A stretch of DNA of 39,113 nucleotides from a virus. Where the stretch lies: the IMG/VR virus record IMGVR_UViG_3300027747_000669, positions 1 through 39,113 of that record; one strand, 5' to 3'. Positions 4,842 to 35,368 of the stretch are shown piece by piece. A model generated the notes under the pieces. The model saw only the letters and a list, made by a program, of their open reading frames with translations. It ran no database searches and had not been told where the DNA came from. Numbering within the stretch: the first letter of the stretch is position 1; each line of letters starts with the position of its first letter. Both the position numbers and the translations under genes were made by a program.

Positions 4842-6546
<1,705 letters not shown>

Positions 6547-30584: not shown

Positions 30585-30732
30585 CTTTACCTGTGTCATA
30601 GATGGCGTTGCCGTTCTCATCAATCTTAATCTTAAATATCTTCAACTCAATCAGCGCCATAATCAGGTTAGCCATATCAGACTTGAGTTGTTTAATCTCA
30701 TTCTTAAGATACTGGATCTCTGTATTTGCCAT
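30562..30732 (-). CDS. small coiled-coil protein
   Basis: A 56-aa frame, MANTEIQYLKNEIKQLKSDM onward, with TGATG overlap to the helicase stop. The first 35 residues form a heptad-like Leu/Ile coiled coil (LIMALIELKIFKIKI). It overlaps the resolvase start by 23 bp in another frame. It may be a helicase or resolvase partner. The frame chain and coiled coil are the evidence. Confidence 0.7.
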   Translation of the reverse strand: MANTEIQYLKNEIKQLKSDMANLIMALIELKIFKIKIDENGNAIYDTGKDGKSEVQ

Positions 30733-31610
30733 CAGACTGCCACCTCGTGTCCGTACTCATCCTCTGGAATAATATCGCCAGAGTAACCAGCACGCGCATC
30801 GCGTGCAAACATAGCACCATAGGCGTTCTTATCTGATATCTGACAGTTGCCATAGCTAACACTGAGCATTGCATAATCCTTTCCATCGGCTGCGTGTGGA
30901 CCAAAGCGGTTCTTCACTGCAGCAATCTTAAGTTCATTGTACTCAGGGTTGTAGCCCAGTGTAAGAATCAGTGCTGGTAGTTGACTTACCTTGCCGTGAA
31001 TAGCACGCCGTGCTGGTGGCTCAGTAGGTGAACCATACTCTGACTGCTCAGAGACGTGGTGCAATACCAGTACACACGCCTCAGTCTTGCGTGCCATATC
31101 GTGCAGATCCATCATAATTGCACGCAGGCCAGCCCATTCGTTGTCTGTCTCAGCAGCTACATTCATAAGATTATCTATGATGATCAACTCAGGGGCTTGG
31201 CCGTACAACTCGACATAAGCCTTTATCTCCAACTCGATATCATCGAGTGACGGACTGGAATCAAAGACCCACTTGATATGTTTTAATTTATCAAATGCAC
31301 CATCGTAAAAATGTGAGTCAGTCGAAAGGTTCTGCTCCACATTTACTTGGTTATGTCCAGAGGCGTGCGCTGCAGCTCTTAACATTACAGTTGTAGTATC
31401 GGTATCTGCTGAGAAGAACAGCGTTGGTACCTTTGCCTTAACTGCGTAGATAAGTGCAAACATAGATTTACCAGCGTTAGGAGCAGCAGCTACCATACAG
31501 ACCTGTCCCCTACGGAACTTGATCTGCTTCTCTGATAGTGCAACCCACACGTCCGGAAGAGGAGTGGCTTTGGTAAGCACAGTCCCCCACGCACGCTGTA
31601 AATCAAGCAC
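30732..31610 (-). CDS. RecA-fold / DnaB-like helicase ATPase
   Basis: A 292-aa protein. GTG 31610 is chosen because GGAG lies six bases upstream. A TTG four codons earlier lacks it. Walker A is APNAGKS (43-49), Walker B IIIDNL (143-148) and LVLHHVS (181-187) is a RecA-type sensor. It resembles the C-terminal motor of DnaB-type helicases without the N-terminal primase-interaction domain, or the RepA-type hexamers. With the primase pieces downstream it likely unwinds DNA at the phage fork. Confidence 0.85.
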   Translation of the reverse strand: MLDLQRAWGTVLTKATPLPDVWVALSEKQIKFRRGQVCMVAAAPNAGKSMFALIYAVKAKVPTLFFSADTDTTTVMLRAAAHASGHNQVNVEQNLSTDSHFYDGAFDKLKHIKWVFDSSPSLDDIELEIKAYVELYGQAPELIIIDNLMNVAAETDNEWAGLRAIMMDLHDMARKTEACVLVLHHVSEQSEYGSPTEPPARRAIHGKVSQLPALILTLGYNPEYNELKIAAVKNRFGPHAADGKDYAMLSVSYGNCQISDKNAYGAMFARDARAGYSGDIIPEDEYGHEVAV

Positions 31611-31866
31611 AAAATTCTCCAAACGGAAGTACGATATTCTTTTCTTTGCGTATATCTTTTCTTTGGAACTCGGTCAACCCACCCCAAATACCAAAGCGTT
31701 CGTGTCTGATGCCCCAGTCTGCACATTCAGCCTGATGGATACAGCTTCCACAAATAGAGACAATAAGTTTCTTTTCAGGAAATGAACTACTCTGTTCAAC
31801 AGGATAGTACATCTCAGTATCTATGCCCCTACAACGTGGTTCCTCGAATTCCCAAGGACCACGCAT
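31603..31866 (-). CDS. WhiB-family iron-sulfur regulator
   Basis: An 87-aa protein with ATG at 31866. It carries the four invariant cysteines C12, C39, C42 and C48 (C-x26-CxxC-x5-C) and the GIWGG turn at 59-63, followed by a basic patch QRKDIRK that contacts DNA. Wbl proteins bind a 4Fe-4S cluster and region 4 of the host primary sigma factor. Phage versions can repress host whiB genes or control late genes. Their restriction to Actinobacteria and their phages identifies the host phylum. Confidence 0.95.
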   Translation of the reverse strand: MRGPWEFEEPRCRGIDTEMYYPVEQSSSFPEKKLIVSICGSCIHQAECADWGIRHERFGIWGGLTEFQRKDIRKEKNIVLPFGEFCA

Positions 31867-31869
31867 CCG

Positions 31870-32259
31870 CTAACGGACCCAGATAGTCTCGCACTTATCT
31901 AACGCACCCTTGGGTGCTGCACACATATAACCCTGCCAAGGTCCACGTGCTGATGTGCCTGTCTTAAAGGCCATCACGCCGTGCTTACATTGCTTAGTAC
32001 CAGGTGCATCAAACTGTGATGGTGCAGATGGTGCAGCAACTGGTGTTGCTGTGAACTGTGCCTGGATATTCTGTACTGCAGCAGCAGTGGTGTTGCCACC
32101 TGATAGATCATTGGCTGTTGCCTTGATTAACGCAGCAACCATACCTAGGTCATTAAGACCTGTCTCAAGATCCTTTACGTCTGTTGCATAAAGATTGATA
32201 AGAGTTCCATCAGCTAACTTGTAGTTGATTTGGAACTTTGTGTTTTCGTTTGCAGCCAT
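31870..32259 (-). CDS. conserved actinophage protein with C-terminal zinc site
   Basis: A 129-aa protein with ATG at 32259, directly following the Cas4-like gene. The N-terminal half is beta-like (KFQINYKLADGTLINLYATD), then comes an Ala/Thr/Pro-rich linker. The C-terminus shows QCKHGVMAFKTGTSARGPW followed by GYMCAAPKGALDKC, a Cys/His cluster often seen in actinophage proteins next to Cas4 nucleases. The role is unknown; single-strand DNA binding is possible. Confidence 0.75.
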   Translation of the reverse strand: MAANENTKFQINYKLADGTLINLYATDVKDLETGLNDLGMVAALIKATANDLSGGNTTAAAVQNIQAQFTATPVAAPSAPSQFDAPGTKQCKHGVMAFKTGTSARGPWQGYMCAAPKGALDKCETIWVR

Positions 32260-33219
32260 TTACTTTCCTCCGTTTGATTTGATATTTAGTCTTGTAGATT
32301 CTGCACCAACAACCTTGGGTACAAAGCCTAAAAGTTTTTCAACTTCCTTACTGTCAACTGTCTCACGACCCTTAACAGTTGTCCAACTGATTTCTATACC
32401 ACTCGCAGTAGTACCAGTAGCACCCACTAAAGATTCTTTTAAGGAATCTCTTTCTTTCTCCAGCTCTTTAATCTTGCTATCTAACTGTAGATAGTGCAGT
32501 GCGTGCTTGTCAATTTCAACGTCCTCAATCACGACTTCACTAAGGACGATACGTTCTTTCTTAAGACCACCGCAACCCATCTGCTCTGTTGCATCGTAGT
32601 ACTGGCAGTAGTCCTTGCAGAAAGATTGATCCTTCTCAGGTTCAGGTAGCGTAGTAGATGCTTTGACTGCCTCAAGCCAAGCAAATGCTTCTAACGCAAT
32701 CGCTTCATCGTAAGGTTCGGTATGTACCTTGACATCTTTTTCAGCACCATCGCGTGCTATCGCTACAAGGTTAACTGTCTTAACATCGTAACCATTCTTA
32801 GATAGTAGATAGCCATAGACCTGTACCTGCCAACGCTGTTGCTTTGATGGAAAGTAACTAAGGTTCTTAATCTTAGATGTCTTCCAGTCAATGACAGCGC
32901 CGGTGCTTGGTACAAATAAATCTACGTGCGCTTTCATCTCACCATAGGCAACCTCGGTTTCAACCAAGTACTCTTTGCCTTCAGGGTCAATAGCACCGAT
33001 AGCTTCTTCAATGGCTGCGTGGATAGCAGTTCCCATAATCGCTGCGAGCTTTGACTGGTTATCGTTTGTGTGTGGCTGAGCATTGAGTCTGTACCAGACC
33101 TTGCGCTTGCAACCACCAATCTCTGATGGACCAACTTCTGTCTGCTGACTTCTGTCACGACTTTCATCTTTAGAATGCAATACGTGCAGTAGTAATTCCT
33201 TTGGATCTTCTATCGCCAC
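32260..33219 (-). CDS. Cas4-family / RecB-like nuclease
   Basis: A 319-aa protein with GTG start at 33219 and GGAGGG ten bases upstream. GPSEIGGCKRKVWY (30-43) contains the first cluster cysteine C37. GTAIHAAIEEA (63-73), AHVDLF with D100, VIDWKTSK (D111, K113) and QVQVYGYLL make the PD-(D/E)XK nuclease. CKDYC (201-205) and C216 complete a 4Fe-4S-type cysteine set. The last 90 residues form a coiled coil and a beta end. It is likely a 5'-3' exonuclease for recombination. No CRISPR array is present. Confidence 0.9.
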   Translation of the reverse strand: MAIEDPKELLLHVLHSKDESRDRSQQTEVGPSEIGGCKRKVWYRLNAQPHTNDNQSKLAAIMGTAIHAAIEEAIGAIDPEGKEYLVETEVAYGEMKAHVDLFVPSTGAVIDWKTSKIKNLSYFPSKQQRWQVQVYGYLLSKNGYDVKTVNLVAIARDGAEKDVKVHTEPYDEAIALEAFAWLEAVKASTTLPEPEKDQSFCKDYCQYYDATEQMGCGGLKKERIVLSEVVIEDVEIDKHALHYLQLDSKIKELEKERDSLKESLVGATGTTASGIEISWTTVKGRETVDSKEVEKLLGFVPKVVGAESTRLNIKSNGGK

Positions 33220-33317
33220 TTGCGGTCATCCCTCCAGCTTAGCCAGGTATCAAAGCCGTAGGCTCCTACAAATCCCAGTAAAAAACAAATCAAACCAATC
33301 GCAATCAACTCTTTCAT
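33210..33317 (-). CDS. tiny single-pass membrane protein
   Basis: A 35-aa frame beginning MKELIAIGLICFLLGFVGAY and ending WRDDRKWR. AAGGA lies six bases before ATG 33317. Residues 4-20 form one membrane helix with a basic cytoplasmic tail. It overlaps the nuclease start by 10 bp. Function unknown. Confidence 0.7.
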   Translation of the reverse strand: MKELIAIGLICFLLGFVGAYGFDTWLSWRDDRKWR

Positions 33318-33318
33318 T

Positions 33319-33873
33319 TCATATCCTTGTCTGTGCTATCACTTGTATTGGTGGGTGCGTATTGATATCCAGTAAAGATGCAATCCTGACTGCCTCTTCT
33401 GCAACCACACTTGCTGTAATTACCTTATTGTAATTCTTAGGTGGCAAGGAATACAAGTACCCAAGGGCATAATTTCCACCGGAGCCTGCCGAGAATAGGC
33501 CACGCTCAGATGTGTTAAACGATAGGTCGCCACCGATGGAGAACAGGTTTGTGTTGAACGCAATAAGGAATGAGAAGTTCATCTCCTTGTTATCAATCTC
33601 GTAGTTATTTTCTTTGAACGCAGCTGAGATACTAGGCAGTACTTTGCTACCCATAAAGCGCGTTGGCTCTTCACCGCGATATAGCGGTGGCTTCCACGCG
33701 TAGGCAAGGATGTCACCTGGGCGTGAGTCACCAGTAAGACCGAGTAAGTATTTACCAGTGTTGACTATCTTGGGTGTCTCAACGGAAATGATACGTTGAT
33801 CTCCGTCCGTGATTTGCGAGTCAGCCGCAAGAACTACGAAGTCGTTGCCTTGGATTCCTACGAGTGTTGTCAT
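33319..33873 (-). CDS. HslV/proteasome-beta-like N-terminal nucleophile protease
   Basis: A 184-aa protein. I chose ATG 33873 so that Met removal exposes a Thr: MTTLVGIQGNDFVVLAADSQ resembles the start of HslV (MTT...). Counting mature Thr as 1, Asp17 (AADS) and Lys34 (ETPKIV) fit the Thr1/Asp17/Lys33 triad of proteasome-type proteases. LLGLTGDSRPGD is the following loop and SAGSGGNYALGYL matches the GSG strand with the conserved Ser. Family members self-compartmentalise. No ATPase partner is encoded here, so it might use a host ATPase or act alone. It is the first gene of the leftward block. Confidence 0.88.
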   Translation of the reverse strand: MTTLVGIQGNDFVVLAADSQITDGDQRIISVETPKIVNTGKYLLGLTGDSRPGDILAYAWKPPLYRGEEPTRFMGSKVLPSISAAFKENNYEIDNKEMNFSFLIAFNTNLFSIGGDLSFNTSERGLFSAGSGGNYALGYLYSLPPKNYNKVITASVVAEEAVRIASLLDINTHPPIQVIAQTRI

Positions 33874-33881
33874 ACTGGGCA

Positions 33882-33995
33882 TCTTATCACGGCGTGTCGC
33901 AAGACACATACTAGGCATAGGGTGTCTACAATATGAGCCGTAGGCGAATAACAGTAGGCGGCCCTCACGGGCCGAGAGGTAGGAGGCCCGACAGT
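33882..33995. promoter_or_regulatory. divergent control region with GTGTC/GACAC repeats
   Basis: This gap separates the leftward protease gene from the rightward zinc-protein gene. It contains a perfect GTGTC-GCAA-GACAC dyad (33894-33907) and another GTGTC at 33922-33926. TACAAT (33927-33932) could be a rightward -10 box. No good -35 box was found, so the promoters may need an activator. No clear leftward ribosome site precedes the protease start, compatible with leaderless translation. Confidence 0.5.
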
Positions 33996-34259
33996 ATGCG
34001 GCTCCGTCTACCAACCCTGCCAAGATTACGCCATAGGAACCCGCTACAAGGGTTACCAGAGGTCGCAGGAGCCGATTTGCGGGGCTTAGGTCCTATCCAC
34101 GTCTGTACGTGTGGGTCGCAGGTATTTAGCGCTATGGTTTCCTTTGATGACTACGAGCTAGTCTGGTATTTCTTAGATGGAACCTGCGTCAACTGTGGCA
34201 ATCTGGTCAAACTACCCTGCCCTGTAGATCGTGATGAAGCACAGACTTACTGCGATTAA
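33996..34259 (+). CDS. small zinc-ribbon protein
   Basis: An 87-aa protein. ATG 33996 has an excellent AGGAGG site nine bases upstream. A longer frame from 33933 has none. The first 30 residues are Arg/Leu/Pro-rich and unusual. The C-terminal 55 residues look real: HVCTCGSQVFSAMVSFDDYE then FLDGTCVNCGNLVKLPCPVD, a CxC/CxxC zinc ribbon known from actinophages. Another frame over the N-terminal half also looks protein-like, so a frameshift or sequencing error is possible here. Confidence 0.65.
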   Translation: MRLRLPTLPRLRHRNPLQGLPEVAGADLRGLGPIHVCTCGSQVFSAMVSFDDYELVWYFLDGTCVNCGNLVKLPCPVDRDEAQTYCD

Positions 34260-34648: not shown

Positions 34649-34858
34649 TTACTTGGCTTTAGTCATTGTCAATTCGTGCTTAGGGTTAGCCCAAGCAATA
34701 ATTACTGGAACGATTGCAAGCCATAGCGTATTAGCTGCGTGCTTCCAATCTCCTGCTGAGAAGTCAAGTGGTGACTTTCCGATAACTACTACTGCTGTGA
34801 GAGCGTTACCAACGAACCACTTTGCCCACATATCTAGTACTTTTGTATTGAACTTCAT
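34649..34858 (-). CDS. holin-like membrane protein
   Basis: A 69-aa protein with AAGGAG before ATG 34858. Two hydrophobic stretches, about residues 14-30 (WFVGNALTAVVVIG) and 43-57 (NTLWLAIVPVIIAWA), are separated by a short polar loop, and the C-terminus is charged (HELTMTKAK). Size, two membrane helices and position next to the endolysin fit a holin. The membrane protein at 35365-35637 could share or antagonise the role. Confidence 0.8.
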   Translation of the reverse strand: MKFNTKVLDMWAKWFVGNALTAVVVIGKSPLDFSAGDWKHAANTLWLAIVPVIIAWANPKHELTMTKAK

Positions 34859-34867
34859 TGTATCTCC

Positions 34868-35368
34868 TTAGTCTTTGAACTTCGGTGACCCGAAGCCAAC
34901 AATAAATGCTGTGAGTTTGCGCTTATTATCTTTCTTGTAAGCGCGGATGCGCTCTGCTACTTCTCCACCGTTTGCTTGTGAACCTGATGTCTTATGCTCA
35001 GGTGAAGTATTGCCCTCAATGGTTGTAACAGTCCCATCAAGGTTATCTTTAAGCACAATACCAACGTGCTCTACTGGAGCACCGCCTGGTGCGAAGTCAA
35101 AGAATACTATGTCGCCAGGCTTGGGCTTGGCAGTGGCTGCATTAGACCAACCACCGGTGCCTTGAAACTTTGCTACACCAGCTACTGTACTTACGACATT
35201 TGGGATCTTAAGACCAACCTGATTAGCACACCACATAACAAAACTGCCGCACCAAGGTAGGTAATTCGCTTTAGTAAACGCGCCATATTTTGTCTCATTA
35301 TCCTTTGGTCCTTCAACTGTGCCAATCTCTTTACTGGCTGTTGCTATAAAGTCTGCACGCTGGCTCAT
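34868..35368 (-). CDS. endolysin with CHAP domain
   Basis: A 166-aa protein with GGAG before ATG 35368. The CHAP amidase/endopeptidase core shows LPWCGSFVMWCANQ with nucleophile Cys40, GDIVFF, EHVGIVL with His101 and TTIEGNTS with the third-position Glu/Asn. No separate cell-wall-binding domain is visible; the basic C-terminus (YKKDNKRKLTAF) may provide binding. It would cut peptidoglycan cross-links, reaching the wall through the neighbouring holin. Confidence 0.93.
   Translation of the reverse strand: MSQRADFIATASKEIGTVEGPKDNETKYGAFTKANYLPWCGSFVMWCANQVGLKIPNVVSTVAGVAKFQGTGGWSNAATAKPKPGDIVFFDFAPGGAPVEHVGIVLKDNLDGTVTTIEGNTSPEHKTSGSQANGGEVAERIRAYKKDNKRKLTAFIVGFGSPKFKD

Follow-up and report, generated by a model that had tools for sequence, protein, structure and literature searches.

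A gene on the minus strand of a 39,113-nt stretch of viral DNA (the whole stretch that we analyzed, hereafter the window) encodes a proteasome-like protease, PLP, at the head of a replication operon. This raises the question of what kind of enzyme PLP is and what a phage uses it for. Phage-borne proteasome-like proteins as such are nothing new, having been published already (Fuchs et al. 2021; PHROG 1040); they are catalogued with no assigned function, and our literature search on the function of phage HslV-type proteins returned only the 2021 survey (PMC8665760). What is new is that a freshwater actinophage family has PLP as a near-core gene, that it is present as a single copy in one of two genomic places, and that in one of these places it is exchanged for a metallopeptidase-like protein, MP. 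We found neither the two-place layout nor the exchange reported in the literature searched. The features of the operon and its promoter, in window coordinates, are as follows.

33894-33907 (-): inverted repeat GTGTC-TTGC-GACAC in a conserved promoter block
33881-33886 (-): -10-like hexamer TAAGAT, 7 nt upstream of the PLP ATG; predicted leaderless transcription start at the ATG
33319-33873 (-): PLP (184 aa), with the predicted catalytic Thr1 at residue 2
33210-33317 (-): 35-aa ORF MKELIAIGLICFLLGFVGAYGFDTWLSWRDDRKWR, directly downstream of PLP; one likely membrane segment, judged by eye
32260-33219 (-): Cas4/RecB-like exonuclease, the next operon gene, used as bait for sampling the slot
31870-32259 (-): operon gene for a 129-aa protein with a weak match to PHROG 364
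31603-31866 (-): WhiB-like regulator, an actinobacterial marker
30732-31622 (-): DnaB-like replicative helicase (the operon's ATPase, but no AAA+ unfoldase itself)

Identity, start site and promoter of PLP

The protein starts with MTTLVGIQGNDFVVLAADSQ and scored above the cut-off of the Pfam family PF00227 (Proteasome; E 4.5e-7, 30.1 bits, cut-off 22.4), and it matched PHROG 1040, 'peptidase HslV family', over its full length (1.6e-23). It remained under the cut-offs of the NCBIfam HslV equivalog models (34.0 versus 137 and 33.6 versus 157.75 bits). PLP aligned end to end with PDB chains of HslV and of the betaproteobacterial protein BPH, and its profile found HslV (3ty6, 2.5e-12) and BPH (5ovu/5ovs, about 2.6e-10) in the PDB. 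We modeled a single chain with AlphaFold2, using as input 50 sequences, the window's and those of 49 viral-contig relatives. The model (pLDDT 92.9, pTM 0.89) has the strand and helix order of a beta-type proteasome subunit with helices H1-H4 all present (residues 50-58, 70-88, 133-142 and 151-168). Foldseek placed BPH on top (TM 0.76, E 3.3e-11), and VIA-align gave Z scores of 20.4 for BPH and about 19.5 for HslV, with PDB chains of BPH, HslV and the 20S beta subunit at 19-20, a tie that by itself does not choose a subfamily.

Counted from the mature N-terminus, Thr1, Asp17, Lys34 and Gly47 (oxyanion) are invariant in all 50 sequences, down to 30% identity; Lys34 is the proteasome Lys33 displaced by one. 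The dN/dS values of PLP against seven near relatives (0.09-0.33) support purifying selection. In PLP the virus encodes a genuine and conserved relative of the proteasome/HslV proteases, and the computed fold and profile matches support its prediction as a group-I (BPH/HslV-like) threonine peptidase of the proteasome family. An earlier note, written from the letters of the window, had read the gene as HslV/proteasome-beta-like with an intact Thr/Asp/Lys set, which PF00227, PHROG 1040 and the invariance bear out. The Lys that it placed near position 33 also held up, but the Ser of its GSG motif is Ser in 41 and Thr in 9 of the 50 sequences. The likeness to HslV extends to the family only, as PLP is not a true HslV: it fails the equivalog cut-offs and has no HslU. 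The claim that no partner ATPase is encoded agrees with our search for AAA and AAA_2 domains, which revealed no AAA+ unfoldase within the window; AAA matches in two relatives of the E7 type (see below) were 261-aa ORFs, the size of their DnaB-like helicase. PADLOC matched neither PLP nor MP, and profile searches of genome contigs with the PLP alignment and the window's WhiB found no relative.

The earlier note had named a true start further upstream, with no processing to expose the Thr, as the finding that would speak against it. The Thr codon directly follows the ATG in 68 of 81 PLP relatives. A hexamer TANNNT ends 6-7 nt before the ATG in 43 of 43 upstream sequences, the distinct ones of those relatives that have the ATG and the promoter block, compared with a mean of 2.8 after shuffling. 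This supports the ATG before the Thr, and because a -10 box at this distance would start transcription at the ATG itself, we infer that the PLP mRNA is leaderless. Leaderless mRNAs are common in actinobacteria, and methionine aminopeptidase is normally expected to remove a Met that precedes Thr. With a leaderless ATG directly before the Thr codon, loss of Met1 to methionine aminopeptidase would alone expose the Thr. A longer 234-aa ORF from the TTG at 34023 was rejected because the -10 hexamer lies inside it and its upstream DNA is promoter sequence common to MP-type phages, and a further ATG in the same frame, 9 nt before the chosen one, lacks conservation in the relatives.

The inverted repeat is common to PLP-type and many MP-type phages, and its only exact copy in the window is at the PLP promoter. 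In more distant relatives both arms differ, L053 for example having GTGTCGC-TTCT-GCGACAC, a pattern that resembles the retention of a palindromic operator. The start codon of PLP is ATC in L019, L023, L029, L035, L037, L039 and L040 and ATA in L046. At these loci the promoter and PLP are separated by an inserted small or HNH gene that extends over the PLP start; PLP is intact, and in several cases a Shine-Dalgarno-like purine stretch precedes its start, so that a non-standard start codon with translational coupling is possible. In the window PLP heads the leftward replication block, as the earlier note had it, with its own predicted promoter, and the operon would be expressed early.

Phage family, probable host and the two places of PLP

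The window terminase is closest to those of the cultivated Planktophila phages LanE43AprE7 (E7) and LanE43AprF5 (F5), with 47% identity; their records carry the organism name 'ct2KA10', and their isolation and cultivated host have been described (PMC10202952). This kinship, together with the WhiB gene, points to an actinobacterial host, in line with the earlier suggestion, and probably to Nanopelagicales. PLP is near-core in this freshwater actinophage family, E7 and F5 included; the hosts would be actinobacteria that are abundant in lakes. Several hundred IMG/VR contigs carry the gene, and we also found it in Actinomycetia phage DSL-LC01, Arthrobacter phages Hum25 and Pitbull, and Microbacterium phages Pumpernickel and WaterT.

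About 200 PLP neighborhoods fell into two layouts. The window type has the order PLP-exonuclease-129 aa-WhiB-DnaB, and the E7 type (C-type) the order terminase-portal-PLP-internal virion genes, with PLP right behind the portal gene in all of them. Each of 27 records of 35-43 kb recruited with PLP has one copy. Recruitment with the terminase only gave 21 records, 19 of them with a single PLP; it was absent from G028 and from a 30.5-kb fragment. Hence, each near-complete genome with PLP has one copy, in one of two places. In the PLP tree the window type forms one clade (SH-aLRT 99) and most E7-type sequences another; the two are neighbors inside an actinophage clade, in a tree whose long branches make the deep branching order unsure.

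Some loci depart from these layouts in detail. In an E7-type fragment (L477 of G033, 4886-5146) the portal gene is directly followed by the next gene, without PLP. The exonuclease-like gene of phage E7 (L562, 4213-4990) consists of two overlapping ORFs in different frames, possibly due to a frameshift or sequencing error. In a plasmid of Streptomyces sp. MMBL 11-1 (L470, 4001-5529) PLP lies immediately 5' of a 3'-5' exonuclease gene, an order that resembles the PLP-exonuclease pair of the phages.

Exchange of PLP and MP, and what it suggests

The strongest clue to function is the exchange of PLP for MP. In G028, identity to the window is 96.6% for the terminase and 91% for the exonuclease, and the promoter is the same; the position of PLP is occupied by a 110-aa ORF with MHEVTHAVIHES. 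We sampled the slot independently of PLP with the exonuclease as bait. The resulting 80 loci contained PLP in 47 cases and MP in 31, and 2 were cut by the contig end; none of the 78 readable loci had both proteins or an empty slot. MP was also absent genome-wide from 44 long records with PLP, and PLP from 7 records with MP. Homology between MP-type and PLP-type loci stops exactly at the shared ATG (L482/L480 at 879/329, L487/L022 at 1957/1327) and in both pairs restarts beyond the stop codons, toward the same 35-aa ORF and exonuclease. This ORF, which lies between PLP or MP and the exonuclease, is conserved and retained through the swap. On the exonuclease tree the label changes between PLP and MP 5 times, and 5-6 times in bootstrap trees, none of which (0%) has a single change; an AU test did not reject a single MP clade (p 0.08), which leaves the count of swaps uncertain. 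We also looked for a gene swapped along with PLP or MP, but no other gene family fully distinguished PLP-type from MP-type genomes.

MP has about 110 aa, is unrelated to PLP and carries an HExxH metallopeptidase-like motif, with H53, E54, H57, H61, E62, E74 and E75 invariant (H53-E54-x-x-H57). It matched weakly to the putative metallopeptidase DUF6782, to M78/IrrE and to PHROG peptidase families, and the motif and these matches make a peptidase likely. Its structure model was poor (pLDDT 56.8), and its profile matched no PDB chain. A remote relative lies between the repressor and cro genes of a Streptococcus prophage, near the head of an early operon like MP in the phage slot.

The lysis genes next to the slot (window 34649-35368) are partly linked to its content. 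Of 8 PLP-type genomes 6 have the CHAP endolysin, compared with none of 7 MP-type genomes, and another endolysin-like gene is found mostly in MP-type genomes. This is probably physical linkage.

That an unrelated MP takes the place of PLP from the same start codon onward suggests a need of the phage for a protease of some kind at this spot. Two unrelated peptidase-like proteins in one promoter-defined slot, with no other gene fully linked to the choice and no phage unfoldase, amount to a natural experiment that leaves the remaining operon unchanged, and argue that proteolysis itself is probably the selected trait. We therefore propose an early protease slot that is filled by either of two unrelated enzymes, an explanation to which, as a whole, we give an even chance. 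The host methionine aminopeptidase would free Thr1 of PLP, and the subunits would form a ring or a smaller assembly. From an early stage of infection, and with no unfoldase supplied by the phage, they would cut a small number of host or phage proteins, perhaps just one. MP would perform the same job, and the slot would be kept for a protease of whatever fold. The likeliest class of substrate would be a host regulator, a host defense protein or a phage regulator. A tentative view, with a chance somewhat short of even, is that PLP and MP can stand in for each other at one promoter and start codon because they share an important target of this sort, which both cleave.

Alternatively, the site could be a variable accessory slot, with PLP and MP as different anti-host genes (for example for counter-defense) that have different targets and share the insertion point and promoter. 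The sharp boundaries of the swap would fit. Small ORFs and HNH genes are likewise found inserted downstream of the promoter, ahead of PLP or MP, and together with the modular lysis genes next door these insertions indicate that the region recombines often. However, a free accessory slot should give more contents and some empty sites, and the restriction of all 78 readable loci to just two occupants, both peptidase-like, counts against this alternative, which we regard as rather unlikely.

A role of PLP as head-maturation (prohead) protease is improbable. The place behind the portal gene, which PLP has in phage E7 and all other C-type relatives, is the classical one for such proteases, and it gives some footing to the processing of virion proteins, an idea of the earlier note that is otherwise weakened. 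In the window's family, PLP leads the replication operon under its own promoter and does not lie between portal and capsid genes, as it does in the E7 type; a position at the operon head fits host takeover, counter-defense or regulator control better than head maturation. PLP is missing from Streptomyces phage Immanuel3, a relative whose terminase is 43% identical and whose head genes are arranged similarly. In Microbacterium phage WaterT, PLP sits among small genes before the terminase, and a separate annotated capsid maturation protease is present between portal and capsid genes. The portal-adjacent position in E7-like phages, outside the early operon, also means that early timing is not general.

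It appears quite improbable that PLP joins, poisons or redirects the host's HslV or 20S proteasome, or makes use of an unfoldase of the host; its fold and Thr set are those of a beta-type subunit and no unfoldase was found in the window, but assembly into a host ring hardly explains the swap with an unrelated metallopeptidase. The idea in the earlier note that PLP replaces or poisons host proteolysis found no support, though also no refutation, in our data. That PLP is a specific transpeptidase/ligase or another amidase on the same fold, like the archaeal ligase connectase of the proteasome family (PMC8665760), is highly improbable, since its predicted fold retains H1-H4 without the inserted helix pair described for connectase and its exchange partner is peptidase-like.

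Returning to the protease slot, matched pairs of PLP-type and MP-type phages would be useful in a search for substrates, and the hundreds of PLP contigs, the cultivated phages of the family and their cultivated Planktophila host make the question testable.

Comparison with known proteasome relatives

The phage proteasome homologues PPH and AAH, described by Fuchs, Alva and Lupas in 2021 (PMC8665760), and the members of PHROG 1040 are, like PLP, phage-encoded single-domain beta-type subunits that start with MT[TC] and have intact Thr1, Asp17 and Lys33. PPH has about 140 aa and lacks helix H2, whereas PLP has 184 aa and keeps it, and thus PLP is not a PPH. PLP is separated (SH-aLRT 97) from a group of rhizobial and streptomycete plasmid and phage sequences that is possibly AAH; the hosts of this group are similar to the ones given for AAH. 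To judge from the known hosts, the PLP clade contains only actinophages, whereas Actinobacteria-specific phages with AAH could not be found in that survey.

HslV (ClpQ) resembles PLP in fold, in the N-terminal Thr after Met1, in the GSGGNYAL motif and in length; identity is about 20%, and PLP lacks the equivalog scores and the HslU of a true HslV. BPH (PDB 5OVS/5OVT/5OVU), the best solved match to our model though tied with HslV and 20S beta, is also without a known unfoldase. The two are 21-23% identical in the structural alignment, in which PLP is represented by a predicted single chain.

Among phages, the PLPs of DSL-LC01, Hum25/Pitbull and Pumpernickel/WaterT are annotated as 'protease' or 'ATP-dependent protease subunit', and those placed on the tree fall in the clade of the window PLP. 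These phages are larger or unrelated, with about 28-35% PLP identity and other gene neighborhoods. The Planktophila phages E7 and F5 (PMC10202952) belong to the same family as the window phage, and their PLPs are 29-30% identical to the window's; in E7, unlike in the window phage, PLP lies behind the portal gene and nothing occupies the slot ahead of the exonuclease.
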